Under the pieces are notes generated by a model. It made no database searches, was not told the DNA's origin, and worked only from the letters and a program-made list of their open reading frames with translations. Below, in pieces: positions 9,852 through 29,133 of a stretch of DNA of 64,000 nucleotides. Both the position numbers and the translations under genes were made by a program. This DNA is from Saccharomonospora xinjiangensis XJ-54 (GTDB lineage Bacteria > Actinomycetota > Actinomycetes > Mycobacteriales > Pseudonocardiaceae): contig NZ_JH636049.1 of the NCBI RefSeq assembly GCF_000258175.1, positions 1,016,982 to 1,080,981 of the forward strand. The letters are read 5' to 3'. Numbering within the stretch: the first letter of the stretch is position 1; the number at the start of each line of letters is the position of its first letter.

Positions 9852-10715
9852 TCAGAACCGAAGGTTCGCCAGGTACTCGTAGCCGACCTTCGCGGTGTTC
9901 AGCGCATCGGTGGGAGCGTCGTGTTCGACGATGTACTGCTTCATCGGCCCTGCCCACGTCCTGCGGAACAGGTCCGGGAAGTCGATCGTGCCCGTCCCCA
10001 GGTCGGCGAAGCTGCCGTCCGATGCTCTGTCCTTGACGTGGAACTGCAACACCCTGCCGAAGCGGCGGTGATACTCCTCCACCGGGTCGGCACCACCCGC
10101 GACGACCCAGTACAGGTCGTACTCGAAGTGCACGGTGCGGGGGTCGGTGTGCTCGGCGATCACGTCGATCGGCCGGACGCCGTCAACGAGGGCGTACTCG
10201 TGGGCGTGGTTGTGGTAGCCGTAGGCGATCCCGGCCTTGTGGAACGCCGCCGCAGCCTCGTCGAGCCGCCCCGCGAAAGCTCTCCAGTCGTCGGCGGTCG
10301 GAAAGTTCGCCCACGCGCAGGCCGCCTTCCGGTACCCGAGAATCCGGGCGTCCTCGATCAGCCGGTTCACGTCGGCACCGTCGAAGGAGACGTGGGCCGA
10401 CGTCGCGCTGAGGTGATACCGGTCGAGGATGGCCCTGAACTCGGTCGCGGACCGGCCGTAGGTGCCTGCCAGCTCGACGGTGCGGTAGCCGATGTCGGCC
10501 AGCGCCTCCAAGGTGCCCTCCAGGTCTGCCTGCAAAAGGTTGCGGAGGGTGTAGAGCTGGATGCTGATCATCTGCCTGGGAACCCGCCTCGTCGGCGGCC
10601 CCCAGGTGGCGGTGGCGTGCGCGGTACCGCCCAGCGCTCCGGCGAGCCCCACCGCCGCAGCCGCACCGGCCGCGGTGCGGAACATCGCTCGACGGGACAG
10701 TCTCTCGTCACTCAT
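9852..10715 (-). CDS. Tat-exported sugar phosphate isomerase/epimerase (TIM barrel)
   Basis: 287-residue protein with a twin-arginine signal ([12 protein letters not shown], residues 6-16, then an Ala-rich segment ending THA near residue 34) followed by a xylose-isomerase-like TIM barrel (about 50-287). Visible barrel features include [10 protein letters not shown], a late GYHNHAHEY metal-site strand and HVKDRAS. Members act on sugars, inososes or hydroxy acids with a divalent metal. The leader indicates work outside the membrane, unlike the two cytoplasmic relatives upstream in the same operon. GGAGAGG precedes ATG 10715, which overlaps the upstream stop by 8 nt. It is the last gene of the ebo-like cluster. 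Confidence 0.82.
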
Positions 10716-11727
10716 GGCCTCGGTTCCTCTCCGTGCTGAACGCGGCGTCGAAGGCCGCCTCCGGCTTGTCGAACACCCTGCTGCGGATGTAGGTCACCGC
10801 TTCGGCGGCACCCCGCAGGCGATCCATGCCCGCGTCCTCCCACTCGACCGAGATCGGCCCGGTGTAGCCGATGGCGTTGAGCGCACGGAACGCGCTCTCC
10901 CAGTCAACGTCGCCGTGCCCTGTGGACACGAAGTCCCAGCCCCGGCGCGGGTCGCCCCACGGAAGGTGGGAGCCGAGCCTGCCGCCCCTGCCGTCGAACC
11001 GCTTCTTCGTGTCCTTGCAGTCCACGTGATAGATGCGGTCAGCGAAGTCGATGATGAAACCCACCGGATCGAGGTCCTGCCACACGAAATGCGAAGGGTC
11101 CCAGTTCAGGCCGAACGCGGGCCGGTTGTCCACTGCCTTGAGCGCCAGCGTGGTCGTCCAGTAGTCGTAGGCGATCTCACTGGGGTGCACCTCGTGGGCG
11201 AACCGCACGCCGACCTCGTCGAAGACGTCGAGGATCGGGTTCCACCTGCGCGCGAAGTCGGCGTAGCCGTCCTCGATCACCTCCGCGGGCACCGGCGGGA
11301 ACATCGCGACGTACTTCCAGATCTTCGACCCGGTGAAGCCGACGACGGTGTCCACGCCGAGTTTCGCGGCGGCCCTCGCCGTGTCGGCCATCTCGGTGGC
11401 CGCGCGCTGCCGCACCCCCTCGGGTTCGCCGTCGCCCCAGATCCGGGAAGGGAGGATGTTGCGGTGCCGCTCGTCGATCGGGTCGTCACACACCGCCTGC
11501 CCGACGAGATGGTTGGAGATCGCCCATACCTTGAGCCCGTAGGAATCCAGCAACGCGAGCCGGTTCGCGACGTAGTCCTTTTCAGACAGTGCTCGATCGA
11601 CCTCGAAGTGGTCGCCGGAGCATGCGATCTCCAGCCCGTCGTAGCCCCACTGTGAGGCGAGGCGGCAGACCTCCTCGAACGGCAGGTCGGCCCATTGGCC
11701 CGTGAACAGGGTCACCGGTCGGCTCAT
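10708..11727 (-). CDS. Sugar phosphate isomerase/epimerase (TIM barrel)
   Basis: 339-residue cytoplasmic TIM-barrel protein of the IolE/IolI/xylose-isomerase-like family. Motifs in order are [18 protein letters not shown] near residue 30, [13 protein letters not shown] (metal-site Glu/His), [11 protein letters not shown], and [10 protein letters not shown] with a terminal [11 protein letters not shown]. These positions match the metal ligands of the family. The open frame continues upstream, but ATG 11727 gives a normal N-terminus and overlaps the upstream gene by 4 nt. In this operon a cyclitol or sugar substrate is likely, because an inositol-phosphate synthase and a Gfo/Idh dehydrogenase are encoded upstream. 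Confidence 0.85.
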
Positions 11728-13124
11728 TGGCGTGCTCCCTCTCGGATTCCGTGCAGTTGCAGGAGAAGGTGACGTACATCCGTGGCGGCCATCCGCCCGC
11801 TCGACTCGACGGCGGACGGCATCTCGGGGTCGGAGCAGATCAGCATCGGCCCGTGCTCGGCCGAATCCGGTAACCGCCCGTGCGATCCGCGCACCCACCT
11901 CGGGTCGGTGGGCACCACGTTCATCGCGTAGCGCAGCCCGGCTTTCTTGCGCACGAGGTTGAGCCCCGCCCTGGCCTTGGCGAAACGGTCGGCCGGATCG
12001 AAGAACAACTCGGCCGGGTCGTAGCCGGGTTTGCGGTGGATCTCGACGCCGCGCGCGAAGTCGGGCGCACGATCGTCGTCGAGCCAGTAGTAGTAGGTGA
12101 ACCATGCCCTTGGCTCTGCCACCACCACGAACTCGCCCGCCCGAGGGTGGCCCAGCCCGTATCGCGACTGGGCCTCACGATCGAGCACCTCATCCACCCC
12201 GGTGAGGCCCTCGACGATCGAGCGCACCCTGGGCAGGTCGGCGTCGTCGGCGACGTAGACGTGGGCGACCTGGTGGTCGGCCACGGCGAACGCCCTCGAA
12301 GTCCACGGGTCCAGGTACTCCATGCCGTCCTGGGTGTAGACCTCCAGCAGCCCTTCCCTGCGCAGTGCCCTGTTGATGTCCACGGGCGTGTCCACTGAGG
12401 TGATGCCGTACTCGGACAGCGCGACCACCGTGGTGCCCGCGCGGCGCGCGTCGGCGAGCAGCGGGGCCAGCGCGGCATCGACCTCCCGCGCGGCCTTCAC
12501 CGCCTGCGGTGAGCCGGGGCCGTACCGCTGGAGGTCGTAGTCGAGGTGCGGGACGTAGGCCATCAGCAGGTCGGGGTTGTCGGTGCGCAGGATGCGCCGG
12601 GTGGCCGCCACGATCCACTTCGTCGAGGTGATCGACGCCGTCGGGCCCCAGTACTGGAACAGCGGGAACGGGCCGAGGTCCGCGGTGAGTGCGTCGTGCA
12701 GGTGCGGTGGGCGCACGTAGCAGTCGGGCGATTTGCGGCCGTCGGCGTGGTAGACGGGGCGTGGGGTGACCGTGATATCGGTGGTCATGCCCATCGCGTA
12801 CCACCAGCACACGTTCGCGGCGGTGTAGCCGGGATGCTCCGCCCTCGCGGTCTCCCACACCTTCGGCCCCCGCACGAGCCTGTTGTGCTGCCGCCACAGG
12901 TGGATCTCGCCGAGGTCGCGGAAGTACCAGCCGTTGCCGACGATCCCGTGTTCGGCAGGCATCGTCCCGGTGAGCAGGGTCGATTGCACGCTGCACGTGA
13001 CGGCGGGCAGCACGGTACCCAGCTCGGCGCGCCAGCCCTCCTCGGCGAGCCCCGACAGGTTCGGCATGTGCGGCAGCAGTGCGGGCGTCATACCGACCAC
13101 GTCGAGCAGGAGCAGTTTCTTCAT
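11724..13124 (-). CDS. Alkaline-phosphatase-fold phosphodiesterase, EboF type
   Basis: 466-residue member of the nucleotide pyrophosphatase/phosphodiesterase family. The metal and nucleophile signatures are [10 protein letters not shown] (metal Asp), [15 protein letters not shown] (nucleophile Thr), [15 protein letters not shown] (Asp/His ligands), ALSEYGI and [11 protein letters not shown]. No signal peptide is seen, so it acts in the cytosol or on a membrane lipid head group. Alkaline-phosphatase-fold proteins of this kind are the F component of ebo clusters. ATG 13124 overlaps the EboE-type gene (ATGA). Inference: it could hydrolyse or transfer a phosphate ester of a prenyl-linked cyclitol. 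Confidence 0.82.
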
Positions 13125-14215
13125 GCGGCTACCTCCGTGTGCGCCCAGCGCAGTTCGTCGGCGATTCCCGCGGCGAGATCGATGTCGCCGGAGGCAGGCA
13201 GGACCGTCCACGTGTAGGTCTCGACCTCGATGTGGGGAACGGGCCGCCCGGTGTCGGCCAGGGCGGCCACGGCACCGGTGAGCACGTCCGTGGTCGAGGC
13301 CAGCGGCGACCGTGGGCCGGCGTGCAGGGGAACGTGGAAGTGCACGCGCCACGGCCCGGCACCCGGCAGATCGGCCAGCGCGGCGTCGAGGTCGTCGGCC
13401 GCGAGCACCTCGCCGCTCGGCGACAATTCCCGTACCTGGTGCAGGTACCGGGGTTCGCAGAACTCGGCGAGCGCGGCGCGAGCCTCCCGCGCTGCCGGGT
13501 TCTCGACATGCAGGGCAGCCGATGCCTGCACCTTCACGATGTCGAGCCCGGCGTCGTGGACGCGGCGGATCTCCTCGGCGGGGTCGGCGAACGACACGGC
13601 GAGATGACAGGTGTCAAGGCACAACCCGACATGGGCCGGATCGACGCGGCCTGCCAGCCACGACACCGCGTCGGCCACCGTGTCGAGCACACACCCTGGC
13701 TCGGGTTCCACGGCGAGCCGCAGTGGCCTGCCGTCCGAGAGTTCACGCGCGTGAGCTGTGATCTCGGTGAAGGCCGCCGTCGCGCGGTCGTCGTCGGCAG
13801 GAGTCCACGGCTCACGCCAGGCCAGCGGCAGTGTCGAGATGCTTCCGTACCGCGCGTCCTCGTGCAGGAGACCGGCCAGCACCGTGAGACAGTCGCGCGT
13901 GTAACGCAGCCTGCGCTCGTCGGTCCACGTCGGGACGTACACGGCGTGCTTGACGACGGTGTCGTGGAAACCCCCGTAGGGGAAGGCGTTGAGGGTCTGC
14001 ACCGCGAGTCCTCGTGCCTTCAGTTCGGCGGCGAAGCGCCTCAGGGCGGCTGGGTCGGCGGCCAGCCCTGCGGCCACGGTCGAGGCCAGCCACAGCCCCA
14101 CTCCGAGGAGATCGGCACCGAGCCGCTCCCTCACCGGCACGGCGTAGGTGTCGAGCGCGGCGACGAGGTCGTCCAGATTGTCGGCGGCATGGACGTTCGT
14201 GCAGTAGGAGAGCAC
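13121..14215 (-). CDS. eboE: Metabolite traffic protein EboE-type (TIM barrel)
   Basis: 364-residue protein starting MLSYCTNVHAADNLDDLVAAL, the recognisable N-terminus of the EboE family. It is a xylose-isomerase-like TIM barrel that ebo clusters carry for export or processing of prenylated precursors. Further landmarks are LNAFPYGGFHDTVVKHAVY, LAVEPEPGC, LCLDTCHLAVSFADP and VEVQTYTWTVLP-like VETYTWTVLP near the C-terminus. ATG 14215 lies 3 nt after the TatD-type gene. The family name comes from cyanobacterial scytonemin-associated clusters; the exact reaction is not established there either. Confidence 0.8.
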   Translation of the reverse strand: MLSYCTNVHAADNLDDLVAALDTYAVPVRERLGADLLGVGLWLASTVAAGLAADPAALRRFAAELKARGLAVQTLNAFPYGGFHDTVVKHAVYVPTWTDERRLRYTRDCLTVLAGLLHEDARYGSISTLPLAWREPWTPADDDRATAAFTEITAHARELSDGRPLRLAVEPEPGCVLDTVADAVSWLAGRVDPAHVGLCLDTCHLAVSFADPAEEIRRVHDAGLDIVKVQASAALHVENPAAREARAALAEFCEPRYLHQVRELSPSGEVLAADDLDAALADLPGAGPWRVHFHVPLHAGPRSPLASTTDVLTGAVAALADTGRPVPHIEVETYTWTVLPASGDIDLAAGIADELRWAHTEVAA

Positions 14216-14218
14216 GGC

Positions 14219-15079
14219 TCACTTCCTCGCGCCGCGCAGGATCGAGTTGCCCTCGAACGTGCCGGACTCCGAGGTGACCGGCAGCTGTTCGATCATCAGT
14301 TTGCCGCTCTGCCCGTAGAAGGCGACGGGGTTGTCCCACAACACAGCGTCCACATCAGACTCGGTGAACCCGGCTTCGAGCATGGTCTTCCCGGTGCGGT
14401 AGGTCGTCAGCGGGTCCGAACGTCCCCAGTCGGCCGCCGAGTTCACGAGCATCCGGTCGGTGCCGTACTCCTTGAGGATGGCGACCATGCGGTGTTCGTC
14501 CATCTTCGTGTCGGGGTAAATCGAGAAGCCCATCCAGCATCCCGCGTCGGCCACGAGCCCGACGGTGACCTCGTTGAGGTGGTCAACCACCACCCGGGCC
14601 GGGTCGATGCCCGACTCCGCGACGACGTCGAGGGTGCGCCGTGTGCCCGCGAGCTTGTCGCGGTGCGGCGTGTGGACGAGCACGGGAAGGTCGTGCTCGA
14701 TCGCGAGCCCGAGCTGATACGTGAACGCCTTCTCCTCGGCGTCGGTCATCGAGTCATAGCCGACCTCGCCGACGGCCACCACGCCGTCCTTGGCGAGGTA
14801 GCGCGGCAGGACGTCGAGCACACCGGCGCAGCGGGGATCGTTCGCCTCCTTCGGGTTGAGCGCGATGGTGCAGTGGTGGCGGATACCGAACTGCGCCGCT
14901 CTGAACCGCTCCCATCCGATCAGCCCGTCGAAGTAGTCGGTGAACGACCCGACGTTCGTGCGGGGCTGCCCGAGCCAGAAAGCGGGTTCGACCAGTGCCC
15001 GTACTCCGGCGGCGCGCATCTTCTCGTAGTCGTCGGTGGTCCGCGACGTCATGTGGATGTGCGGGTCGAAGATCTTCAT
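14219..15079 (-). CDS. eboB: TatD-family metal hydrolase, EboB type
   Basis: 286-residue amidohydrolase-fold protein. The metal ligands are visible: DPHIHM near residue 5 (HxH), GEVGYD (Glu), VLVHTPHRDK (His), VVVDHLNE (His) and NSAADWG (Asp). TatD nucleases hydrolyse DNA 3' ends, but the EboB branch lies in ebo clusters and is thought to hydrolyse a small metabolite. ATG 15079 overlaps the upstream gene by 4 nt, so it is translationally coupled to the EboA fusion protein. The substrate is unknown; membership of the cluster is the main clue. Confidence 0.82.
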   Translation of the reverse strand: MKIFDPHIHMTSRTTDDYEKMRAAGVRALVEPAFWLGQPRTNVGSFTDYFDGLIGWERFRAAQFGIRHHCTIALNPKEANDPRCAGVLDVLPRYLAKDGVVAVGEVGYDSMTDAEEKAFTYQLGLAIEHDLPVLVHTPHRDKLAGTRRTLDVVAESGIDPARVVVDHLNEVTVGLVADAGCWMGFSIYPDTKMDEHRMVAILKEYGTDRMLVNSAADWGRSDPLTTYRTGKTMLEAGFTESDVDAVLWDNPVAFYGQSGKLMIEQLPVTSESGTFEGNSILRGARK

Positions 15080-16503
15080 CGGCTGACCTCCTCGTCACAG
15101 GTGGCGCCGGAGGCCAGGATCGCCTCGGCGTCGGCAGGCACGGTGCGTCCCGCCGCCTTCCGCTCGGCCACGTAGTCGGCGACCATGCGGCGCAACTCGG
15201 CGTCGCCGCGCCGGTCGAGTCCGGCGACGGCCGCGGTCGGAACCCCGGTGAACAGGCACTTCAACACCCCGTGCCGCCAACTGTGGTCATCGAGATGGTC
15301 GGCCGCGAACTCCCCGAGCGCTGCGGCCACGAGCCCGGTGTCGTTGGCCCGTAGCGCGTCGGCCACCATCCGCTGCCCCGCCTCGACGACGCGGGGCTCG
15401 TCCGGCAGGACGTGGAGGTTGCGCAACACACCCCGGCGCTCGGCGCCGTCGCCGTAGCGGTATAGCTCTTCCACTTCCTTCACGAGCGCGTCGGTGTCCA
15501 GCGCCGAGGCCAGCGCGGCGAGCAAGCGGCCCCGCGCGCGGTCGTCGGCGGTGCCGTGGACGAGCCCTTCCGGGTCCACGCCGGGGCGGAGCGCGGCGCG
15601 TCCCACTCTCCGGCCTGCCGAGGGGAAGAGCACGCGGATGCGCTCCGGTTCGGCACGGATCGCCGATTCCGCGTCCACCACCCAGTCGGCCGAGGCCAAT
15701 GCCGCTCTCGCCCTGCGGGCGACGTCGGGGGCGGCGTGGCTGTGCCGGGGCAGCTCGACCGCCGCGAGTCCCCGGTAACCCACCTCGGCCAGCGCCGCGA
15801 GCGTGTCGGCCAGGTCGAGCCGTCCCTCGCCGAATTCGAGATGCTCGTGCACGCCGGGGAGCATGTCGTCGAGCTGGACGTTGAACAGCAGCGGCCCGGC
15901 CTCGCGCACACACTCCGCCGCGCTGACCGGTTCGACGGCGACGCAGTGCCCGACGTCGAGTGTGATGCCGAGCCGGTCAACCTCGCCCAGTTCCGCACGA
16001 AGCCGCAGTGCCTGATCGAGGTGCTGCACGTAGTGGCCTGGTTCGGGTTCGAGCGCGAACCGGGCGTTCGTGTTCTCCAGCACGGCCGAGACCCCCGACA
16101 GCAGGCGTTGCCACGCCGTCTCTTCGTCCACTGCGGAGTCGGCGACCCCCGACCAGAACGACACGCATTCCGCGCCGAGATCGTCGGCGATCTCGGCCGC
16201 TCTGCGAAGGAAGTCGATCCGGGGACCCGGTTCGCCGGACAGCAGTGTCGGCTGGTGCTTGCGCCACGGGTCGAGCAGGAACCGTGCCCCTGTCTCGACC
16301 ACCACACCGAGCCCCAGCTCCGACAACCGCCTCGCGACCCGCGCGGTCTGGGCGACCACGTCGTCGGCGAAGGGATCGAGGTGCGCGTGGTCCAGTGTCA
16401 GCGCCACGCCCGAATAGCCGAGATCGGCGATGACGGCCAGCGCGTCGTCGAGCCGGTGATTGGCGAAACCGTTGGTGCCGTAGCCGAATCGCAGTGTGCT
16501 CAC
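15076..16503 (-). CDS. TIM-barrel isomerase fused to an EboA domain
   Basis: 475-residue two-domain protein. Residues 1-265 form a sugar-phosphate isomerase TIM barrel (LRFGYGTNGFANHRL start, VVVETGARFLLDP, ALEPEPGHYVQHL, ITLDVGHCVAVEP, AVELPRHSH). Residues about 270-475 match the EboA domain (YGDGAERRGVLRNLHVLP and DHLDDHSWRHGVLKCLF). In cyanobacterial clusters EboA stands alone, so the fusion ties a catalytic barrel to it. GTG 16503 is selected because it overlaps the UbiA stop (GTGA) and starts directly at the barrel; the open frame further upstream is compositionally shadow. The EboA role is unknown; it is suggested to work with the other Ebo proteins in metabolite transport. Confidence 0.8.
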   Translation of the reverse strand: MSTLRFGYGTNGFANHRLDDALAVIADLGYSGVALTLDHAHLDPFADDVVAQTARVARRLSELGLGVVVETGARFLLDPWRKHQPTLLSGEPGPRIDFLRRAAEIADDLGAECVSFWSGVADSAVDEETAWQRLLSGVSAVLENTNARFALEPEPGHYVQHLDQALRLRAELGEVDRLGITLDVGHCVAVEPVSAAECVREAGPLLFNVQLDDMLPGVHEHLEFGEGRLDLADTLAALAEVGYRGLAAVELPRHSHAAPDVARRARAALASADWVVDAESAIRAEPERIRVLFPSAGRRVGRAALRPGVDPEGLVHGTADDRARGRLLAALASALDTDALVKEVEELYRYGDGAERRGVLRNLHVLPDEPRVVEAGQRMVADALRANDTGLVAAALGEFAADHLDDHSWRHGVLKCLFTGVPTAAVAGLDRRGDAELRRMVADYVAERKAAGRTVPADAEAILASGATCDEEVSR

Positions 16504-17372
16504 GTGGGGCTCACCTTTCTCGCGAGTCTCCTGGCCAGCGGAAGGGCGGTGATCAGCACGGTCGCGGCGCGCACCGCTCCGTGCCGGGCGGCGATGGTGG
16601 CTTGCAGCGGAACCATGCCGTGGATTCCGGCACCGGTGGCGGCCCGCACCCGCTGGGCCGAGGGCTTTCGCAGGGCCGCGTACTGGGCGCCGCCGACGGA
16701 GGCCGCGTACGTGGCCGAGAACAACGCCGTCGCCGCACGGCGCGGCCCGCCGCCGGCCTGGCCTTCGCCACCCCGCTTGGGCACCGTGGTGGCGACGGAC
16801 ACAGCCGTGACGGTGGCGGTCAGCGCGCCTCCTGCCACGCGCCGATCGGCGCCGTGCACCTCCCCCGCCGACAACGCGGTGACGCCGAGCGTGTGCACAC
16901 CGAGTGCTCCGGCCGCCGCGACAGCGGCCCTCTCCCTTCCCGACGCGCCGAGGAGCACGTCCAGTGCCCGGCACGCCGCCATGCCGACCGGCCCGAGAAC
17001 CGTGCCCTTGACCCTCGTGTCGTAGGCCCACAGGCACGCCGCCAGCGGCACCGAGGTGCGCCACGCGCGGGCTCCGCCTCCGATCCGGGCCAGCGCGAGT
17101 CCCGCGCCGGTGAGGGCGATCCCCGTGCTCAGCGCTGCCCTCGCGCTCACCCTGCCCGAGGGGATCGGCCGTTCGGGCCGCTCGACCGCGTCGAGATCGC
17201 GGTCGGCCCAGTCGTTGAGCGCCATTCCGGCCCAGTAGAACGCCACCGACGCCAGCGGAAGCAGCCGCCTGCGGCCCCGCAGCGGGACGTTCGCGGCGGC
17301 GGCACCGGCCACCGTGTCACCCACCACGCTCAGCGCAGCGGGGGCCCTGACCAGTTCGGCGTACGCGTTCAC
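16500..17372 (-). CDS. eboC: UbiA-family prenyltransferase, EboC type
   Basis: 290-residue integral membrane prenyltransferase with seven to nine predicted helices. The first Asp-rich site is NDWADRDLDAVERP near residue 53 (NDxxDxxxD), followed by RPIPSG; the second site is weaker (YDTRVKG). UbiA enzymes join a polyprenyl diphosphate to an aromatic ring or a sugar/cyclitol phosphate. GTG 17372 overlaps the inositol-phosphate synthase stop as GTGA, so the two are tightly coupled. Inference: the acceptor may be the product of that synthase. Cyanobacterial EboC is the equivalent member of the ebo cluster. Confidence 0.84.
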   Translation of the reverse strand: MNAYAELVRAPAALSVVGDTVAGAAAANVPLRGRRRLLPLASVAFYWAGMALNDWADRDLDAVERPERPIPSGRVSARAALSTGIALTGAGLALARIGGGARAWRTSVPLAACLWAYDTRVKGTVLGPVGMAACRALDVLLGASGRERAAVAAAGALGVHTLGVTALSAGEVHGADRRVAGGALTATVTAVSVATTVPKRGGEGQAGGGPRRAATALFSATYAASVGGAQYAALRKPSAQRVRAATGAGIHGMVPLQATIAARHGAVRAATVLITALPLARRLARKVSPT

Positions 17373-18517
17373 AGGGCGGCCGCCCAGCGCACGAGTTCGG
17401 AGAACTGCTCGGCGAGGCGGTGTTCGGCCGTGCCGACCGGGTCCTTGAAGAAGAACGCCAGCGACGCCAGCGGGCCTTCCTGTCCTGCGGCGTGAGCGGC
17501 GGCCGTGAAGCGGGCCAGGTCGAGCACCAGCGGCGCGGCGAGCGACGAATCGTAGCCGGTCCAGGTGAACTGCATGCTCATGCGCGTTCCGAGGAAACCC
17601 TCGAACGACACGTGGTCCCACGCGATCTTCTGCTCGCCGAGGTCGGGAACGTTGTCGATGTGCAGGGGTGCCGTGACCTCGCCGCCGAGCAACGTCGCCA
17701 ATCCTCGGCCCTTGGACGCGAGCTTGCTGCCTGCGTGCTCGGCGTCGGCCAGCGTCATCCCGTCACCTCCGCCGAGCAGGTTGGTACCCGCCCACGAGCG
17801 CACGGCGAGGCCACGCGTGGTGAACATGGGCGCGAGCGTGCTGCGCACCAGGGTTTCGCCGGTCTTGCCGTCCGATCCCGCGTACGGCAGGCGCCGCTGC
17901 CGTGCCAGCTCTTCCAGCGCGGGCAGCCGGACCCCTCTCGACGGCGTGAAATCGACGAAGGGGCAGCCCGCCCGCAGCGCCGCGTAGGCCGCGACCGAAC
18001 TCGGCGGCAGCACCGTCCTGCCTGGCACGGCCATGGCCGCCTCCAGCGCGGCGAGGTCGTCGTGTTCGGGCAGCGCGGGAAACACTGGCTCCGTCGAGGA
18101 CACGTTGACCACCACGACCCTGGCGAGGTCGTACTGTCGCGCGAACGCGGTGATGTCGGCCGCGAGCTTCTGTGCCGCTTCGGCTTGCGTTCCCGCGTGC
18201 GTCGCCGGGTGGTAGCCGTACCGGATCTGGGATTCCACATCGGACAGAGCGGGCCGCACGGCCTCGACGACCCGGTGCGGGATCACGCCCGACTCGGCGA
18301 GCAGTTCGGCCCGCTTGTCGAGGCTTGTGTCAACGATGTCGTGGCCACCGACGTGCAGCTCGTCCCACTCCGGCAGCCCGGCGTCGGCGAACTCCCGCAG
18401 CGCGCTGACACATCCGGCTGGAGCGGCGATACCGGACCGCAACGCGAACAGACCCGTGATCGCCGTGGTCGCGACCGAACCCCGGGCACCGATCAACCAC
18501 AACCCTGTGGGCGCCAT
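17369..18517 (-). CDS. Inositol-3-phosphate synthase family protein
   Basis: 382-residue protein of the myo-inositol-1-phosphate synthase family, which isomerises glucose 6-phosphate to inositol 3-phosphate with NAD+. The NAD loop is LIGARGSVATTAITG (residues 7-21). Later landmarks are VVNVSSTEP, PFVDFTPSRGV, AGSDGKTGETLVRSTLAP and LHIDNVPDLGEQKIAWDH. The Lys of GSDGKTGET is the expected catalytic lysine. ATG 18517 is chosen over GTG 18526 because GAGG lies at proper distance. It is probably a second, specialised copy beside a housekeeping ino1, and it takes the place that EboD (a dehydroquinate-synthase-like cyclase) holds in cyanobacterial ebo clusters. Confidence 0.85.
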   Translation of the reverse strand: MAPTGLWLIGARGSVATTAITGLFALRSGIAAPAGCVSALREFADAGLPEWDELHVGGHDIVDTSLDKRAELLAESGVIPHRVVEAVRPALSDVESQIRYGYHPATHAGTQAEAAQKLAADITAFARQYDLARVVVVNVSSTEPVFPALPEHDDLAALEAAMAVPGRTVLPPSSVAAYAALRAGCPFVDFTPSRGVRLPALEELARQRRLPYAGSDGKTGETLVRSTLAPMFTTRGLAVRSWAGTNLLGGGDGMTLADAEHAGSKLASKGRGLATLLGGEVTAPLHIDNVPDLGEQKIAWDHVSFEGFLGTRMSMQFTWTGYDSSLAAPLVLDLARFTAAAHAAGQEGPLASLAFFFKDPVGTAEHRLAEQFSELVRWAAAL

Positions 18518-18637
18518 GCTGCACACCTCAGTTTCCTCGTCCTCGTTCGCGGCGGGCCTCGCGCCGCCCTGCCCTGCCTGCCTTGCCCTGTCCCGTCACG
18601 CTCCCCCGGCGTCCGCCGTGCGATGTATCCCTGGAGA

Positions 18638-18681
18638 CTCCCCGGTGGGCGCCCGCCGCGCCGCACGCACCCACCGGGGAG
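18638..18681 (-). terminator. Terminator after the ThuA/sugar-dehydrogenase gene
   Basis: 12-bp stem CTCCCCGGTGGG / CCCACCGGGGAG separated by 20 nt, just downstream of the giant gene's stop codon. It suggests that the inositol synthase-ebo genes have their own transcript or receive partial readthrough. Confidence 0.6.
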
Positions 18682-18685
18682 ACGA

Positions 18686-21600
18686 TCACGACACGCCGGG
18701 CAACGGCGCGCTGCCATCGAGATCGCCGATCAGGGCTCGCCCGTCCCGCACCAGCACCTCCCTCACGGCGCTGTCCGGGACGCGCTCGGCCGTCTGGACG
18801 AACGACTCCAGAGCACGCAGTGCCTGCCGGTGACGGTCGCGGTCGAGTGCGAGGTCGGCCTGCGCCAGATCCGCCAGCAGCCTGACCTTCCCCGCCCGCG
18901 ACAGCCGGTCGTCGCCCGCGAACCGGTACACCAGCGCCCGCGCGTCGTCGATCGACGTCGTCGAAACGAAGGTCAGCGTGTGCTCGGCGGTGTTGCCCGC
19001 CCTGTCCGTGGCCTCCACGGTGATCGTGTGCTCGCCGAGGTCCAGCGTGTGCAGCGGCACCGTGGTGCTCGGCTCCAGTTCCGCACCGTCGAGCCGAGCC
19101 GAGGCCGACGAGATACCGGACGTGGCATCGCGTGCCTGCCAGGACACGGCGAGGTCCTCCGCATCGCCGTAGACGACGCCGTCGGCGACCCCGCTGACAA
19201 GAACGACCGGGGCGGTCCCGTCGATCGCGACGGTGACGGCCTTGTCGGTCTCGACGTTGCCTGCCCTGTCCACGGCGCGGTAGAGCATCGTGTGCTCACC
19301 GTCGCCGCTGATCACGACCGGCTCGGTGTAGGGCGTCCAGTCACCGCCGTCGAGGCTGTACTCGATGCGCTCGACGCCGGAGCCGGAATCCGTTGCCGTC
19401 AGCGTCACCCCGACCGCTCCCGCGTGCCATCCTCCGGCACCGGGTTCGGCGAACGACGCCTCCGTGACGGGGGCCGTGGTGTCCAGTTCCTTGATCTGAA
19501 CGTCACGGAACGACACGTCGTCACCGTCGCCGTGGTTCTGAAGCCCCACGAAACCCGTAGTCAGATCGCGTCCAGGATCGGTGCTGACGAACTCGTTGAT
19601 CAGCGTTCCGTTGAGATACACCGTGATCGTCTGATCGCGGACCACGATCTCGTAGGAGTTCCATTCGCCGGGAGGGTTGAGCGCGGCGTCCCGTGCCGCC
19701 AGATCGGCCGACTGGAACCCGTAGATCGCGCCGGTGGTCTTCTCCGGGGCGTCCGTGGCGTCGATCTGGATCTCGTAGCCCTGGTTCACCGCGATCCACG
19801 GGTCGTCGCCAGGGTCGGGGAACCCGACGAACACACCGGAGTTGTCGTCACCGGCCATCTTCCAGTCGAGCTTGAGGCTGTAGGAGCCGAACTCCTCGCC
19901 GAACCACAGCAGCCCCATGCCGCCGACCGAGGAGATGGTGCAGTTCTCACCGAGTTCGAACGAGCCGGGACCGGCCTGATGCCAGCCTGCGAGCGAGGAG
20001 GCGGTGCCGTCGAACAGCATCCGGTAGCCCTCCTCTGGCTGTGCGGGCTCGCAGTCGGCAGGCGGGGTACCGGGTTGGGCGACGCCGTCTCCGGCGACGT
20101 GGAGAGCGTCCACGTCGAACAATCCTCCACCGGCCTGGCCGCGGAAGACCAGGAACAGCGGCCCCCTCTCACCCGGATCGGTGACAGCGATCGGACCGAT
20201 CTCCGTGTAGTTGTCGTACCCGCCGGTGTTGGGCACCTCCACCGTGTGCACCACGGGGCCGTCGGCCGCGCCGATCCTCGCCTCGATCGTGCCGCCCGCA
20301 CCGCCGGAGGAGACCCGGTAGGTGATGCCGTCCACGCCGCCGAGGTCGGCGGGTTCGAGCTTGATCCAGTCGCCGTCGTCGATGTAGCCGACCCGCTTGC
20401 CGCCACTGGCGCCGCCCGCGTTCACGACCTGCACGCCGCTCAACTCGGTGAAGTACTCGGCCTGCTTGGTCTTCGGCTGGAGCACGACCTCGTCGGAGCC
20501 CTCCAGCGCGGGCACATCACCGGAACCCGTGTCGGTGTAGCGCGCGTTGAGGACGCCGAAGATGTTCGCGTCGAGTCCGTGGCCCTCGTCGGCCGGAGTC
20601 TCGATGACGCCCTCGCACCCGGTCGCCCTCGACAGCGGGTGGCCGTGGTTGTCGTGGCCGAGGATGTACTCGACCGTGACCTTCGAGCAGTCGATCTCGC
20701 CGTCCTCGGCGTCCGTGACGCTCACCGTGAACGGCACGGTGTCGCCGAAGCCGAAGAACCCGCCGTCGGCCGGTGTTTCGAGTGTGACGACCGGAGCGGT
20801 GTTGCCCACGGTCACCACAACACCGGCGCTCCCGGTCAGTCCGGTGCTGTCGGTCACCGACAGCTTGGCGCTGTACTGGCCCTTCTCGGTGTAGGTGTGG
20901 GTCACGGGACCCGCATCGGTCGCGTCGGTCTGGCCGTCGCCGTCAAAGTCCCAGGCGTAGGCCAGCTCGTCGCCGTCGGCATCCGTCGTGCCGGAGGGGT
21001 CGAACGTGACCCGAAGCGGCGCCGGACCCGACGTCACGTCGGCCGACAGCGACACCTGCGGCGTGCGGTTGCCCAACGTGTAATCGATGCGGTAGACCGC
21101 CGAGTCCGGTGCGCCACCGAAGTAGCCGCTGCCGTAGTCCAGCACGTACAGCGAACCTTCGGGACCGAACTCGATGTTCATCGGCCTTCGCAGCTGCATC
21201 GAGTCGAAGAACGGCTCGATGGCGCCACGTTCACCGTTCTCGCCGACCTCGATCGTCTTGATCCACCCTCGGTCCCATTCGTAGGCGAAGTTCTTGCCGT
21301 CGTAGAACTCAGGGAACTTCGTGGCCGAGTCCAGGCCGGGGTCGAAGTGATAGACCGGACCGCCCATGGGCGACTCGCCGCCCGTGCCGAACTCCGGAAC
21401 CGACCCGCCGTCGTACGGAATCCACGCGGGCTGCGCGGGCGGCAGTTCGGTGAGGCCCGTGTTGTGCGGGCTGTCGTTGACCGGCGCGGAGCAGTCGAAC
21501 GCCTCACCGGAGGTTCCGCTCGCGAAGTCGTAGTCGCGGTACGGCTGGTTGTCTCCCACGCAGTAGGGCCAGCCGTAGTTGCCCGGCCCCTTCACGAGGT

Positions 21601-23269
21601 TGAACTCCACAGTGCCTGCCGGACCCCGGTCGGGGTTCGCCGATCCCGCGTCCGGCCCGTAGTCACCGACGTACAGCCAGCCGGTCTCGCGGTCCACGGC
21701 GAACCGGAACGGATTGCGGAAACCCATCGCGTAGATCTCAGGGCGGGTCTTCTCCGTTCCGGGCTCGAACAGGTTGCCCTCGGGGATCGTGTAGCCGCCG
21801 TCCTCGCTCACCGTGATCCGCAGGATCTTGCCGCGCAGATCGTCGGTGTTGCCCGCACTGCGCTGAGCGTCGAACGCGGGATTGCGGTCGGAGCGCTCGT
21901 CGATCGGTGTGTACCCATCCGAGGCGAACGGGTTCGTGTCGTCCCCTGTGGACAGCAAGAGGTTGCCATCGGCGTCGAAGTCGATCTCCCCACCGGCGTG
22001 GCAGCAAATGCCCCTGTCGGCAGGCACCTGGAGAATCCGCTGTTCACTGGCCAGATCGAGTGTGCCGGAGTCGGTGAGCTTGAAGCGCGACAGCTGGTTG
22101 TGCCCCGCGTACGGCGCGAAGTCCTCTGGCGTCCCGTTCTCCGGGGCGTCCCCGGACGGCGTGTCCAGCGGGGGCGCGTAGTAGAGGTAGACCCAGCGGT
22201 TGGTCTCGAAGTCCGGATCGACGGCGATGCCCTGGAGCCCGTCCTCGTCGTGGTTGTAGACGTCGAGGTTCGCCGCGACGCTCGTGTTGCCGTCGGGCGT
22301 GGTCAGGAAGACGCGGCCGTCGCGAGAGGTGTGGAGCACCCTGCGGTCCGGCAGCACAGCCAGCGCGATGGGCTCACCCGTGACGGCCTCGCCCTTGGCC
22401 AGGGTGATCTGGTCGAAGTCGCCGTCGGCCGGAGGTTCGGCGCCGGGGTCCTCGGAGGTGGAGCAGTCGGCGTCGGCGAGCCCCGCCGCGTACCGGATGC
22501 CGCCCGCGAGGTGGGACAGGAATTCGGGTTCGCCGTAGGACTCGGCGGTGTGGCCGCCTCCGGTGTACCAGGCTCGGCCGCCGCTGTTCTCGTGGCACCA
22601 GGCGATCGGGTGGTCGTCACCCATCGCCCCGGAGCCGGGGTCATAGCTTTCCTCGTCGAGCGAGGCCAGCACGTGCACGTCCTGCCTCGGATTCTCGCGG
22701 TAGTTGTACCACTCGTCGGTACGCGTCCACTGGTACGGAAGGTCCGCTGTGGACGGATGCTGGCGGTCCTCGACGTTGACGACCGCTTCCTGGATGCGCG
22801 GGTGGGAGTCGAACCAGGCGCCCACCAGATCGCCGTACCAGGGCCAGTCGTACTCGGTGTCCGACGCGGCATGCACACCCACATAGCCGCCGCCCGCCTC
22901 CACGTAACGCTCGAAGGCGGCCTGTTGTTCGGAGTTCAGGACGTCGCCGGTGGTGGAAAGCCACACGACGGCGTCGTAACCGGCGAGGTTGTCGTCGGTG
23001 AAGACCGAGGCGTCCTCCGTGGCGTCCACGGAGAAGTGGTGCTCGGCCCCCAACTCCTCGATGGCCGCGATCCCCGCCGGAATCGAGTCGTGCCGGAAAC
23101 CCGCGGTCTTGGAGAAGACGAGAACGCTGGCTTCCTCGTGCTGGACTTGTCGCTGGTCGGCGGCCGCGGTGAAGCCACCGAGCCCCGTGCTCAACGCCAG
23201 CGCCGCGACCCCGGCCTTCCAGCCGCGTCGTGACGCCCCGCTCACCCTGGTACTACTGCCTCGTCGCAC
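18686..23269 (-). CDS. Secreted multidomain ThuA / PQQ-type sugar dehydrogenase / PKD / CBM6 / DUF1080 protein
   Basis: 1527-residue exported protein. A signal peptide (residues 1-37, ending FTAAADQ) is followed by a ThuA domain (~46-267; VLVFSKTAGFRHDSI, YVGVHAASDTEYDW), a glucose/sorbosone-dehydrogenase beta-propeller (~292-735; GLQGIAVDPDF, CCHAGGEIDFDADGNL, NYGWPYC), a PKD domain (~736-822), a CBM6-like module (~935-1060; GYIDDGDWIKLE), a DUF1080 keto-glycoside hydrolase-like domain (~1080-1260; YRMLFDGT...GWH), two Ig-like repeats and a C-terminal FIVAR-like helical domain (~1436-1515). Together they suggest extracellular binding and oxidation or cleavage of a glycoside. GTG 23269 has GAGGAG ~10 nt upstream. 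The position between the dehydrogenase and the inositol synthase implies that it feeds or finishes the cluster's pathway. Confidence 0.85.
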   Translation of the reverse strand: MRRGSSTRVSGASRRGWKAGVAALALSTGLGGFTAAADQRQVQHEEASVLVFSKTAGFRHDSIPAGIAAIEELGAEHHFSVDATEDASVFTDDNLAGYDAVVWLSTTGDVLNSEQQAAFERYVEAGGGYVGVHAASDTEYDWPWYGDLVGAWFDSHPRIQEAVVNVEDRQHPSTADLPYQWTRTDEWYNYRENPRQDVHVLASLDEESYDPGSGAMGDDHPIAWCHENSGGRAWYTGGGHTAESYGEPEFLSHLAGGIRYAAGLADADCSTSEDPGAEPPADGDFDQITLAKGEAVTGEPIALAVLPDRRVLHTSRDGRVFLTTPDGNTSVAANLDVYNHDEDGLQGIAVDPDFETNRWVYLYYAPPLDTPSGDAPENGTPEDFAPYAGHNQLSRFKLTDSGTLDLASEQRILQVPADRGICCHAGGEIDFDADGNLLLSTGDDTNPFASDGYTPIDERSDRNPAFDAQRSAGNTDDLRGKILRITVSEDGGYTIPEGNLFEPGTEKTRPEIYAMGFRNPFRFAVDRETGWLYVGDYGPDAGSANPDRGPAGTVEFNLVKGPGNYGWPYCVGDNQPYRDYDFASGTSGEAFDCSAPVNDSPHNTGLTELPPAQPAWIPYDGGSVPEFGTGGESPMGGPVYHFDPGLDSATKFPEFYDGKNFAYEWDRGWIKTIEVGENGERGAIEPFFDSMQLRRPMNIEFGPEGSLYVLDYGSGYFGGAPDSAVYRIDYTLGNRTPQVSLSADVTSGPAPLRVTFDPSGTTDADGDELAYAWDFDGDGQTDATDAGPVTHTYTEKGQYSAKLSVTDSTGLTGSAGVVVTVGNTAPVVTLETPADGGFFGFGDTVPFTVSVTDAEDGEIDCSKVTVEYILGHDNHGHPLSRATGCEGVIETPADEGHGLDANIFGVLNARYTDTGSGDVPALEGSDEVVLQPKTKQAEYFTELSGVQVVNAGGASGGKRVGYIDDGDWIKLEPADLGGVDGITYRVSSGGAGGTIEARIGAADGPVVHTVEVPNTGGYDNYTEIGPIAVTDPGERGPLFLVFRGQAGGGLFDVDALHVAGDGVAQPGTPPADCEPAQPEEGYRMLFDGTASSLAGWHQAGPGSFELGENCTISSVGGMGLLWFGEEFGSYSLKLDWKMAGDDNSGVFVGFPDPGDDPWIAVNQGYEIQIDATDAPEKTTGAIYGFQSADLAARDAALNPPGEWNSYEIVVRDQTITVYLNGTLINEFVSTDPGRDLTTGFVGLQNHGDGDDVSFRDVQIKELDTTAPVTEASFAEPGAGGWHAGAVGVTLTATDSGSGVERIEYSLDGGDWTPYTEPVVISGDGEHTMLYRAVDRAGNVETDKAVTVAIDGTAPVVLVSGVADGVVYGDAEDLAVSWQARDATSGISSASARLDGAELEPSTTVPLHTLDLGEHTITVEATDRAGNTAEHTLTFVSTTSIDDARALVYRFAGDDRLSRAGKVRLLADLAQADLALDRDRHRQALRALESFVQTAERVPDSAVREVLVRDGRALIGDLDGSAPLPGVS

Positions 23270-23318
23270 TGGTACCTACTCCTCGTCGCCAACGGGGGGG
23301 GACCTTCTCGGTCCTCGG

Positions 23319-24485
23319 CTACACCGTGATGTACGTCGATCCGTTCTCCGCGCTCCGCTCGACCGCCTCCAGCACCCGCTGCACGCGCAGGCCGTCGGCG
23401 AAACCGGGCTCAGGTGGTGTGCCCGCCTCGATCGCGACGAGCAGATCCGCGATCTCGTGCGTGAAGGTGTGCTCGTAGCCGAGCACATGCCCCGGCGGCC
23501 ACCAGGCACCGGCGTAGGGATGAGTGGGTTCGGTGACGACGATCCGGCGGAAACCTCCGGTCTCCGGCGGCTCCTGCCCGTCGTGGAACCACAGCTCGTT
23601 CATCGATTCCAGGTCGAACGCGAGGCTGCCCCTCGATCCGTTGATCTCGATCCGCAACGCGTTCTTACGGCCCAGCGCGTACCGGGTGGCCTCGAAGGTG
23701 CCCACCGCGCCGGACGAGAACCGCGCGGTGAACACCGCGCAGTCATCCACCGTGACGTTTTCGGTGCCACCGGCGCCCTGAGAAGGCCGCTGCCGTACGA
23801 ACGTCTCGGTCAGCCCGGACACGCCCGTGATCGTCTGACCCGACACGTACTGCGTGGCGTCGATGATGTGCGCGCCGATGTCGCCGAGCGCGCCGGAACC
23901 GGCCTGTTCCTTCCGCAACCGCCACGTCATCGGCGACTCGGCGTCGGAAAGCCAGTCCTGAAGGTACGCCGCCCGCACGTGGCGCAGTTCCCCCATCCTG
24001 CCTTCGGCCACCAGCCTCCGCGCCAGCGCGAGCGCGGGCACCCTCCGGTAGTTGAACGCCACCATCGAGAACACGCCGCGCTGACGAGCCCGCTCGGCGG
24101 CCTCGACCATGCGCTCGGCCTCGTCCACCGTGTTCGCCAGCGGCTTCTCGCACAGCACGTGCTTGCCTGCCTCAAGCGCCGCGATGGCGATCTCGGCATG
24201 CGTGTCGCCGGGCGTGCAGATGTCCACGAGGTCCACGTCGTCGCGTTCCACGAGCGCCCGCCAGTCGGTGGCCGACTCTGCCCAGCCCATGCGCTCGGCC
24301 GCCTGTGCCGTGCGTTCGGGGTCTCGGCCGCCGAGCACCACCATCCTCGGGGTGCGCGGCACGTCGAAGAACCGGGCGACACTGCGCCACGCATGCGAAT
24401 GCACGGCGCCCATGAAGGCGTGGCCCACCATGGCGACCCCGAGTGAGGGCCGCCTGCCGTCGTTGCTGCTTGCCTGTTCAGTCAC
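23319..24485 (-). CDS. Gfo/Idh/MocA-family oxidoreductase
   Basis: 388-residue NAD(P)-dependent oxidoreductase. The nucleotide loop is VAMVGHAFMGAVHSHAW near residue 18, the family lysine is in VLCEKPLA, and the C-terminal half has the usual GALGDIGAHIIDATQYVSG segment (His of the catalytic dyad). Family members oxidise or reduce hydroxyl groups of inositol, glucose or other sugars. GTG 24485 is the start that gives the conserved N-terminus; the longer frame upstream is unlikely. No strong ribosome site is seen. It is the first gene of the ebo-like block and could act as an inositol or keto-sugar dehydrogenase. Confidence 0.85.
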   Translation of the reverse strand: MTEQASSNDGRRPSLGVAMVGHAFMGAVHSHAWRSVARFFDVPRTPRMVVLGGRDPERTAQAAERMGWAESATDWRALVERDDVDLVDICTPGDTHAEIAIAALEAGKHVLCEKPLANTVDEAERMVEAAERARQRGVFSMVAFNYRRVPALALARRLVAEGRMGELRHVRAAYLQDWLSDAESPMTWRLRKEQAGSGALGDIGAHIIDATQYVSGQTITGVSGLTETFVRQRPSQGAGGTENVTVDDCAVFTARFSSGAVGTFEATRYALGRKNALRIEINGSRGSLAFDLESMNELWFHDGQEPPETGGFRRIVVTEPTHPYAGAWWPPGHVLGYEHTFTHEIADLLVAIEAGTPPEPGFADGLRVQRVLEAVERSAENGSTYITV

Positions 24486-24821
24486 GAGTCGAAACCCAAC
24501 GTCAGATTCGCTTTTCCTTGGTGACCACCGCCGGCTCGCCGAAGGTTCGGCCTGCGGAGCGGGTTCGGCCTGCCCGGCCACACTCGCGTGCCCTCCCGAC
24601 CGGGAAGGCGGGTGGTCGGCGCCGAGGGGTTGTGGTCTGGTCCACGCGTGGTGAGCCGGGGCTGGGTGCTCACTTCGCCGCTTGTCGCGTGCAGACTTAA
24701 ATCCATTTCAGCCCCACTTTCTCCGCTGGCATGCAAAAGTAGGGCTGCGTCGTGTCGCCGTCAAGCGGCCAGGTGGGCCATCAGGGGATGATCCGCGCCG
24801 AAACGGTGCGTGACCAGGGCG
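24486..24821. other. 336-bp intergenic region, probable promoter of the ebo-like block
   Basis: This non-coding stretch separates GT39 from the first gene of the block. It contains an AT-rich patch around 24695-24740 (on the minus strand TTTTGCATG ... GGATTTAAGTCTG) that could hold a promoter. No clean -35/-10 pair, operator palindrome or terminator could be assigned. A small open frame (24482-24736, minus) has atypical codon use and is not called. Confidence 0.4.
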
Positions 24822-26297: not shown

Positions 26298-26519
26298 AGA
26301 CGAGAACCTTAGGGGAAGGAACCACACGGATCAGTAGTGATCTTTACCCACCCATGCGTTGCCGTGACTAGCCCGTTCGGACGTTCATGGTGCTCCGTGT
26401 GGACACCGGACTCCGATCGCCGCCGCTCTCGGACCGCGACGATCGGACGCGAGGCGACGGTCGGCACGAGGACACGACGATCACGGTGCCGTCAGGCAGG
26501 GGCCAGGCCGTGGCATGAC

Positions 26520-26555
26520 GGTGCCCCGCGGCGGCGTGAACCACCGCAGGGCACC
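26520..26555 (-). terminator. Terminator downstream of lpdA
   Basis: Stem GGTGCCC / GGGCACC extended inward by imperfect pairing (CGCGG with CCACCGC), located just after the lpdA stop on the minus strand. Confidence 0.5.
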
Positions 26556-26561
26556 ACTCCA

Positions 26562-27959: not shown

Positions 27960-27967
27960 GGCCGCGA

Positions 27968-28726
27968 TTATGCCCCCACCGCTTCGGCCGGTGGGGTCCG
28001 CCCGCGCACGTCCGCCAGCAGGCTTGTGATCGCCGCCATGATGCGTTCCGTCGCCTCCCTCAGCTCGCTGGCGCTCGGCCGCTCACTCAGCAGATCCGAC
28101 AGCTCGACGGCGGGACCGGCCACCACGTGCAGAGTCGGCCTCGGGCGCACTCTCGGTAGCTTGCTGGTCACCGGCAGCAGCTCGTGGGTGCCCCAGCACG
28201 CCACGGGAACCACCGGTGTCCCCGTGGTCAGGGCCATTCGCGCGAGTCCCGTTTTTCCCCTGGTAGGCCAGCCGTCCGCCCTGTCGGTGAACCCGCCTTC
28301 GGGGAACACCACGACGCACTCCCCCGCACGGACCGAGGCCACGCCGTCACGGAATGCGTGCAGGGCGCTGGCCTTACCCCTGTGCACGGGGATGTGCCGC
28401 CCGGACGCCATCACCCGCCGCACAACGGGTGTCTCCCACAATTCGGCCTTGGCGAAGAACCTCGGCACCCGCCCCGCGGCCAGTGTGAACAACGTCACCG
28501 CGATCGGATCGGCGAAGGAGAGATGGTTGGCCGCCACGAGCACTCCGCCCCGCCGGGGCACGTTGTGGTGTCCTTCGAGCCGCCACCGGGTCGCGAGCGC
28601 CAAGAGCGGCGCGATGACCTCGATGGCGAGACCGAACCAGAAACCCCTGTCGCGACGGGGAAACCGGCGGATGAGCGTGAGCGGATGTGGACGGCGACGC
28701 CGTTCGCCGGGTCCTGCGGTGCTCAG
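27968..28726 (-). CDS. 1-acyl-glycerol-3-phosphate acyltransferase (PlsC-like), probable CTG start
   Basis: 252-residue lysophosphatidate acyltransferase-like protein. The catalytic NHLSFAD (HX4D) is present, with the VVFPEGGF loop and [17 protein letters not shown] downstream. The first ATG/GTG/TTG in frame is TTG 28603, which would cut off the conserved N-terminal stretch ([13 protein letters not shown], then [14 protein letters not shown]). That stretch is in frame back to a CTG at 28726, which overlaps the upstream stop as CTGA and has GGAG 8 nt before it. I therefore place the start at CTG, with TTG as the fallback. It makes phosphatidate or another acylated lipid for the membrane; acyl specificity is unknown. 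Confidence 0.82.
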
Positions 28727-29130: not shown

Positions 29131-29133
29131 CGT

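Follow-up and report, generated by a model that had tools for sequence, protein, structure and literature searches.

An INO1-like cyclase and a TIM barrel in ebo-type gene clusters without EboD in Saccharomonospora xinjiangensis and other actinobacteria

A window of 64,000 nucleotides (nt) from Saccharomonospora xinjiangensis XJ-54 (contig NZ_JH636049.1, positions 1,016,982 to 1,080,981; the genome measures 4.78 Mb in two contigs) carries ten genes, several of which are homologues of the eustigmatophyte-bacterial operon (ebo) genes. All lie on the minus strand between positions 9852 and 24581, and run from 24581 down to 9852. A sequence-only reading of this DNA had placed the ten genes on one strand, and had stated that most overlap by 4–8 nt. 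Both statements hold: six of the nine junctions are overlaps (five of 4 nt, one of 8 nt), the other three gaps of 3, 49 and 159 nt, and the reported overlap of the INO1 and UbiA genes is genuine. Six genes form a core. They encode an INO1-like cyclase of the myo-inositol-1-phosphate synthase (MIPS) family (17369..18526, 385 amino acids (aa); PF07994 2e-49, PF01658 1e-29), a UbiA-superfamily prenyltransferase in EboC position (16500..17372, 290 aa), a xylose-isomerase-like TIM barrel with a C-terminal EboA domain (15076..16503, 475 aa; PF01261 1.5e-31 and NF035938, 162 bits, cut-off 50), the TatD-like metal-dependent hydrolase EboB (14219..15079, 286 aa; PF01026 4e-14), the TIM barrel EboE (13121..14215, 364 aa; NF035939 422 bits, cut-off 250), and an EboF-type phosphodiesterase/phosphatase of the alkaline phosphatase superfamily (11724..13124, 466 aa; PF01663 5e-66). 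The four outer genes encode two further TIM barrels, called here TIM9 and TIM10, a large ThuA protein and a Gfo/Idh/MocA dehydrogenase.

Pfam and NCBIfam profile matches bear out, with small corrections, the families named from the sequence. EboA is present, as the C-terminal portion of the TIM fusion rather than as a separate protein. PF01261 barrels are four (EboE, the EboA fusion partner, TIM9, TIM10), so that the three TIM-barrel isomerases previously counted are correct only if EboE is left out. The protein described as an EboC-type UbiA is a UbiA, but not a member of the EboC equivalog (NF035940, 141 bits, cut-off 250); it belongs by score to the SCO3242 family (NF045897, 357 bits, cut-off 260), whose description consists of the name alone. 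EboB and EboF were recognized by identity to their counterparts in EboD-type clusters; among the profile matches of the window proteins, no NCBIfam model carried either name. Identity of the window EboB is 52–61% to the EboB proteins of seven plasmid loci of EboD type, 40% to that of L194, and 42% to that of L052; EboF is 43–54% identical to EboF of the eight EboD-type loci which hold this gene.

Clusters of ebo genes are present in several phyla. They are known as eboABCDEF, and an isoprenoid-cyclitol product has been proposed for them (Yurchenko 2016, PMC5133447; Klicki 2018, PMC6282210). The window shares with known ebo systems the EboA domain and the EboB, UbiA, EboE and EboF families, but differs in having no EboD, an INO1 gene and a TIM partner of EboA instead, and a UbiA of the SCO3242 family. 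As EboD was not found in the window, the cluster is filed as a variant of ebo, not as a plain member. Fusion of EboA to a xylose-isomerase-like region in Actinobacteria is mentioned, as data not shown, in PMC5133447, as are clusters without eboD; the word inositol is absent from the main text of that paper. A literature search that had bioRxiv and most subscription journals outside its reach returned no paper joining ebo genes with an inositol-phosphate synthase, and none that matches EboD to INO1 plus a TIM barrel.

Conservation was analyzed in a phylum sample of 396 genomes and in named INO1-like loci, the latter being the best 80 of at least 581 relatives, that is the closest, with no random draw (two loci, L078 and L091, share one genome). 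The main core counts were obtained with hidden Markov models (HMMs) made from the loci themselves, and genes in relatives were called with a simple GC-bias caller. The SCO3242 cut-off is passed by 17 of the 396 genomes. The cluster INO1 profile exceeds 550 bits in exactly those 17 genomes, reaching at most 316 bits elsewhere, and INO1 lies inside the cluster in all 17. EboE (E 1e-20 or better) was found in 19 genomes, the same 17 plus two: G279 features a decayed cluster, with a stop within UbiA and fragments of the core, and G381 an EboD-type cluster. Co-occurrence of the inositol synthase and the Ebo proteins without EboD was the check proposed along with the sequence-only reading; in the 396 genomes INO1 and the SCO3242-type UbiA co-occur reciprocally, and no EboD was found at the cluster in any of the 17.

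Among the 80 named loci the full core resides within the analyzed stretch in 62, from 35 genera. Order and strand are identical in 58 of these, and the remaining four deviate in a single additional, partial TIM match; this constancy across 35 genera rules out chance assembly, and the six-gene core is a conserved unit. The nearest named INO1 among the matches listed is that of Saccharomonospora piscinae (83%), whose locus, L073, features the identical ten genes in identical order. The 18 incomplete loci include two from Planotetraspora (L114, L115), in which EboF lies just past the stretch. A large stretch resembling the ThuA protein is found in both between EboB and EboE, inside the core. In L104, L147 and L152 the stretch ends within or shortly after UbiA; in L076 EboF reaches the edge of the stretch, and tblastn recovered the TIM/EboA gene that the HMM had missed. 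In ten loci (L075, L091, L092, L094–L098, L126, L148) INO1 is unlinked, and the last two are L102, from Thermomonospora catenispora, and L103.

INO1 is split from the core or unlinked in 11 genomes, in nine of which EboE is found elsewhere. In six of the nine, another INO1 is part of a complete core (L167, L168, L169, L173, L174, L175). In two Lentzea genomes, one of which also holds the full core L169, and in Nocardia sp. NRRL S-836, a core devoid of INO1 lies ~21–26 kb from INO1 on the same contig. The core of Sphaerisporangium album is divided between two sites, INO1, TIM, EboA and EboB being at one, UbiA, EboE and EboF at the other (L103, L166). Genome searches identified no EboE or UbiA in Saccharomonospora saliphila (L075) and Micromonospora tulbaghiae (L096); the draft of the former contains a partial EboF at a contig end.

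EboD, a sugar-phosphate cyclase that resembles dehydroquinate synthase, was detected in nine loci out of 119, eight of them on plasmids and the ninth being L052, and not in the other 110. Plasmid records were searched with EboB and EboE (56 and 48 records), and ten neighbourhoods were opened. In Azospirillum, Mycetohabitans, Salipiger, Ketogulonicigenium, Roseivivax, Aureibacter and Deinococcus a gene annotated as 3-dehydroquinate (DHQ) synthase resides with the core, and EboA is a gene of its own in all but Deinococcus; a Gloeothece stretch contains EboB and EboD only. Two Streptomyces plasmids carry instead INO1 and an SCO3242 prenyltransferase, along with EboA and a sugar isomerase encoded separately. 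Neither INO1 nor a TIM partner of EboA was detected in the nine EboD loci (E 1e-4). The absence of EboD and the presence of an inositol-phosphate-synthase-like gene instead, proposed for the window alone, are conserved, and exclusive of EboD in the loci examined. INO1 does stand in EboD's place, but not by itself: as the nine EboD loci feature neither INO1 nor the TIM partner, the counterpart of EboD is INO1 plus the TIM barrel. In these loci, the architecture and the exclusion of EboD can both be taken as firm.

Relocation of EboD elsewhere in the genome was considered, and is ruled out by DHQ-synthase counts in the 17 genomes. Exactly one protein over the cut-off was found in 12, more in 4, and none in one (82% complete); in none of the 17 is a DHQ synthase found at the ebo cluster. 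The single match in the genome of the window, ~0.58 Mb from the cluster, is taken as AroB. A 'ferritin-like protein' and a hypothetical gene flank EboD-type clusters of Gloeothece, Mycetohabitans and Aureibacter (L188, L190, L193), microorganisms of three phyla.

The window INO1 combines the features of a myo-inositol-phosphate synthase, namely both Pfam domains, homology over the whole length to the Archaeoglobus enzyme (1u1i, 217 bits), and a set of lysines. K268, K272, K300 and K361 are conserved without exception in the 17 proteins aligned, and correspond to Archaeoglobus residues 274, 278, 306 and 367, which have a catalytic role; K278 and K367 (Archaeoglobus numbering) are altered in two aligned structure entries. 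Because the four positions are invariant, the cluster INO1 is likely an active glucose-6-phosphate cyclase. Though homologous over its whole length and alike in lysine positions, it differs from the Archaeoglobus-type enzyme in being part of a distinct, ebo-tied group. It scores only 23 bits with the mycothiol INO1 model (cut-off 638), and a second INO1 gene is present in the genome. In a quick tree with long outgroup branches nine unlinked INO1 copies nest among the ebo-linked ones, and 13 other MIPS sequences fall on one side of a branch of weak support (44). The INO1-like genes of three Micromonospora loci (L092, L095, L096; INO1 near 10001–11140) are inside the ebo clade, and do not adjoin ebo genes.

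TIM and EboA are fused in the window and in some of the relatives, but correspond to two neighbouring segments in many others, and to two annotated genes in the two Streptomyces plasmids. The TIM barrel has weak PDB relatives, and is, as a family-level guess, an isomerase or dehydratase. The EboA domain is predicted to fold as a helical repeat (predicted local distance difference test (pLDDT) 96.6), which would be fitting for a scaffold; a PDB fold search gave no significant match (best E 0.33). Nothing significant was found in the PDB by a sequence search with EboE (best E 0.28), and EboF matches phosphonoacetate hydrolase and NPP.

The nearest solved structure to the prenyltransferase, by profile and by fold, is digeranylgeranylglyceryl phosphate (DGGGP) synthase (6m31, 7bpu), an enzyme which places a prenyl group on the oxygen of a glycerol-phosphate ether. 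Scores in the PDB profile search were 43 bits for DGGGP synthase, 38 for chlorophyll synthase and 24 for Aeropyrum pernix UbiA. The predicted model (pLDDT 93.9) has DGGGP synthase as best fold match (E 7.5e-7, 17% identity in the fold alignment), followed by A. pernix UbiA. Likeness does not mean membership, as the score with the DGGGP synthase equivalog (NF009521) is 52 bits, against a cut-off of 296; by analogy, DGGGP synthase is a fair model for prenylation of a cyclitol phosphate. In the first aspartate motif, positions N53, D54, D57 and D61 show no variation across 41 sequences, among them the EboC-like L052. Polyprenyl synthetase genes lie near 14 of 99 loci, under ten genus labels, mostly directly after EboF. 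Two of them, L128:17092-18369 and L138:16792-18192, match a family 2 encapsulin cargo model with 378 and 355 bits (cut-off 450).

The four outer genes lie on both sides of the core. TIM9 (10708..11727, 339 aa) matches 2-hydroxy-3-keto-glucal hydratase (8ro4, 149 bits) and 2zds (587 bits). The 2zds label 'putative DNA-binding protein' looks wrong, the other strong match of TIM9 being a sugar hydratase. TIM10 (9852..10715, 287 aa) features a twin-arginine (Tat-type) motif, read by eye, and a TIM barrel homologous to O-glycoside beta-eliminase (8bvk, AtOGE, the Agrobacterium tumefaciens O-glycoside eliminase (OGE), 87 bits; 8tcd, 93 bits). The protein of 1527 aa at 18686..23269 has an N-terminal signal, also read by eye, and ThuA, GSDH, PKD, CBM6, 3-keto-disaccharide hydrolase and FIMAH domains. 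The dehydrogenase gene, Gfo, spans 23319..24581, with an alternative start at 24485, that of the sequence-only reading (PF01408/PF22725). The protein matches an unnamed oxidoreductase (4h3v, 542 bits), 6a3f (298 bits), which we take to be levoglucosan dehydrogenase, and scyllo-inositol dehydrogenase 5ya8 (246 bits). Levoglucosan dehydrogenase is also its nearest NCBIfam model, the score, 361 bits, being below the cut-off of 650; homologues of a 3-dehydrogenase, an eliminase and a hydratase are all present, the first with this reservation. Further upstream, on the same strand, the region 24822-30102 carries PMT_2-type, pyridine nucleotide-disulphide oxidoreductase, acyltransferase and PALP-enzyme genes, which, judging by the neighbour census, do not belong to the conserved set.

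Glycosides are degraded in A. tumefaciens by oxidation, elimination, hydration and reduction, carried out by GlycDH, Gfo, OGE and HYD, as described in PMC10628242. TIM10 resembles OGE, TIM9 the keto-glucal hydratase, and Gfo is nearest to the levoglucosan dehydrogenase model; unlike that pathway, the window adds the ThuA/GSDH/3-keto-disaccharide hydrolase protein, and adjoins an ebo-type core. By homology, the outer genes are better read as a separate, often linked glycoside-breakdown module. Their distribution was surveyed for TIM9 in 356 genomes. The family occurs in 48, of which 34 are outside the 17 INO1-ebo genomes, and in seven of the 14 INO1-ebo genomes which hold TIM9 the gene lies within ~13 kb of the core. 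A ThuA match is found at most ~12 kb from UbiA in 9 of the 17 genomes (once on the opposite strand), where ~0.2 would be expected from 56 matches. In the 62 complete loci Gfo is present in 30, ThuA in 42, TIM9 in 27 and TIM10 in 26, and any given outer gene is missing from 20 to 36 of the cores. Linkage of the outer genes to the core is beyond chance, yet separable. Genes of a sugar ATP-binding cassette (ABC) importer are found near many relatives (ATPase in 54, permease in 48, binding protein in 42 of 99 loci), as is a ROK regulator (39 loci); counts were made with one query each at E 1e-8, and some hits may be other members of large families. No such genes were found in the window.

The sequence-only reading had assigned all ten genes to a single pathway, in which the dehydrogenase, the ThuA protein and the TIM enzymes tailor the same prenylated cyclitol. 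The linkage figures speak for it, as does the Ketogulonicigenium EboD-type cluster, flanked by an eliminase-like gene (31% identical to TIM10) and two Gfo genes. Yet the closest characterized homologues break glycosides, sugar importer and ROK genes lie near many of these loci, and TIM9 is mostly found in genomes without the INO1-ebo cluster. Glycoside-breakdown homologies and TIM9 distribution rule out one pathway as a full account, and as a reading of the locus it is quite improbable. As eliminase-like and Gfo genes adjoin the Ketogulonicigenium cluster, the tie of the outer module may concern ebo in general, for example via a glycosylated product or shared regulation.

We regard the cluster as an actinobacterial form of ebo, in which INO1 and the TIM barrel do the job of EboD and the product is a prenylated cyclitol, the outer genes being a separate module; the probability of this reading is about 0.52. 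We infer the chemical steps, chain length, product and role of the core as follows. INO1, probably an active MIPS-family cyclase, and the TIM isomerase/dehydratase would turn a sugar phosphate into a six-membered cyclitol, most likely by converting glucose 6-phosphate to inositol phosphate, then re-shaped by the TIM enzyme. The SCO3242-type UbiA would prenylate the ring, perhaps at an oxygen in the manner of DGGGP synthase; a chain length of C15–C20 is a guess, as the best models of neighbouring prenyl synthases are mixed and none is above cut-off. EboF would remove or cleave the phosphate, EboB and EboE finish the molecule, and EboA may serve as a helical scaffold. The prenylated cyclitol would be an end in itself or serve the traffic of metabolites, and Gfo, ThuA-GSDH, TIM9 and TIM10 would separately break glycosides by oxidation, elimination and hydration. 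This is our best guess as the most economical pathway, and the prenyl-diphosphate-synthase genes beside some relatives fit. A prenylated inositol-type product, the inferred 'new lipid-linked inositol compound' of the sequence-only reading, ranks first among the guesses, its odds being about even against aromatic or carrier-type rivals.

Several observations weigh against this interpretation. The INO1-ebo type is uncommon in the phylum (17 of 396 genomes). Thermomonospora catenispora (L102) retains INO1, TIM, EboA, EboB and EboE, and its genome has no SCO3242-type UbiA (E 1e-20) and no EboF (E 1e-60); a core without prenyl transfer exists, which slightly lowers our confidence. A second core in G128 (L040) has no adjacent INO1, this genome having also a core with INO1. 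Close to UbiA, L040 features genes for an FAD oxidoreductase and for a member of the inositol-monophosphatase family; the latter gene speaks for the interpretation, but was dropped as a regular core neighbour, being found in 1 of 99 loci. EboF is retained in both cluster types, so that its role cannot be just that of an inositol-phosphate phosphatase required by INO1-type clusters alone. In L096 the INO1-like gene resides outside ebo, among aminotransferase, carrier-protein, AMP-ligase and acyl-CoA dehydrogenase genes, and was apparently recruited into another cluster. No prenyl synthase gene turned up in the window or in 85 of the 99 loci. The best models of six examined are mixed, three being best with a farnesyl/geranyl diphosphate (FPP/GPP) synthase model, three with an encapsulin-cargo-named polyprenyl-transferase model, followed by geranylgeranyl diphosphate (GGPP) or FPP/GPP models. 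Ubi-297, a relative of EboC, farnesylates quinolines, and the acceptors in its test panel, as described, are aromatic (PMC9235831). No paper naming an ebo substrate or product was returned by the literature search.

The preference of Ubi-297 for 8-hydroxyquinoline-2-carboxylate (PMC9235831) is an argument for an aromatic acceptor, either a ring obtained by dehydration of the INO1 cyclitol by TIM enzymes, or an unrelated aromatic such as a quinoline acid, with UbiA acting as a C-prenyltransferase. TIM9 and TIM10 weakly match the inosose dehydratase model, and A. pernix UbiA is the next fold match of the window protein. By itself, this alternative leaves the replacement of EboD by a MIPS unexplained, and DGGGP synthase is the nearest characterized homologue of both the window UbiA and, putatively, Ubi-297; we consider it unlikely. 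The cluster INO1 might also be a spare synthase for general inositol pools, as phosphatidylinositol or mycothiol, located beside ebo by coincidence. A MIPS homologue with intact lysines is in line with this view, but the genome encodes another INO1, and the cluster type forms a separate group that accompanies the core in all 17 genomes, which makes a mere supply role very improbable.

A role in export is compatible with the prenylated-cyclitol reading: the product would be a carrier, or the proteins a membrane assembly, moving other metabolites outward. In Nostoc, to which the genetic result is confined, ebo is needed for scytonemin maturation, and export to the periplasm has been proposed (PMC6282210). 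The predicted helical-repeat fold of EboA would suit such a role, and a ScyD/ScyE-family gene lies directly upstream of INO1-ebo in a Streptomyces camelliae plasmid (L195:4096-5298). However, no transporter family emerged as a core member in the neighbour census, neighbouring ABC genes are of the sugar-importer type, and just one further locus of the 119 showed a ScyD/E neighbour, as a weak match; export looks possible but rather unlikely. ScyD/ScyE was dropped as a regular neighbour on the same count. The S. camelliae gene echoes the scytonemin neighbourhood of cyanobacteria.

Lineage-wide exchange of a cyclase for an enzyme of known family reaction suggests what the starting ring may be, namely inositol phosphate made from glucose 6-phosphate, and makes the ebo product testable. 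SCO3242, from which the prenyltransferase family takes its name, and its neighbour SCO3243, a myo-inositol phosphate synthase, are listed under the CDA antibiotic cluster in PMC3610822; the INO1-ebo swap may also account for this pair. That two unrelated cyclase folds, EboD and MIPS plus a TIM isomerase, feed one pathway to an ether-linked C15–C20 prenyl inositol or close cyclitol is doubtful. If this holds true, the product would be a new class of small isoprenoid lipids, found in many actinobacterial genera, and made with the EboD form in Cyanobacteria, Bacteroidota, Deinococcota and Proteobacteria; a prenyl inositol would then be an unnoticed lipid of antibiotic-producing actinobacteria.

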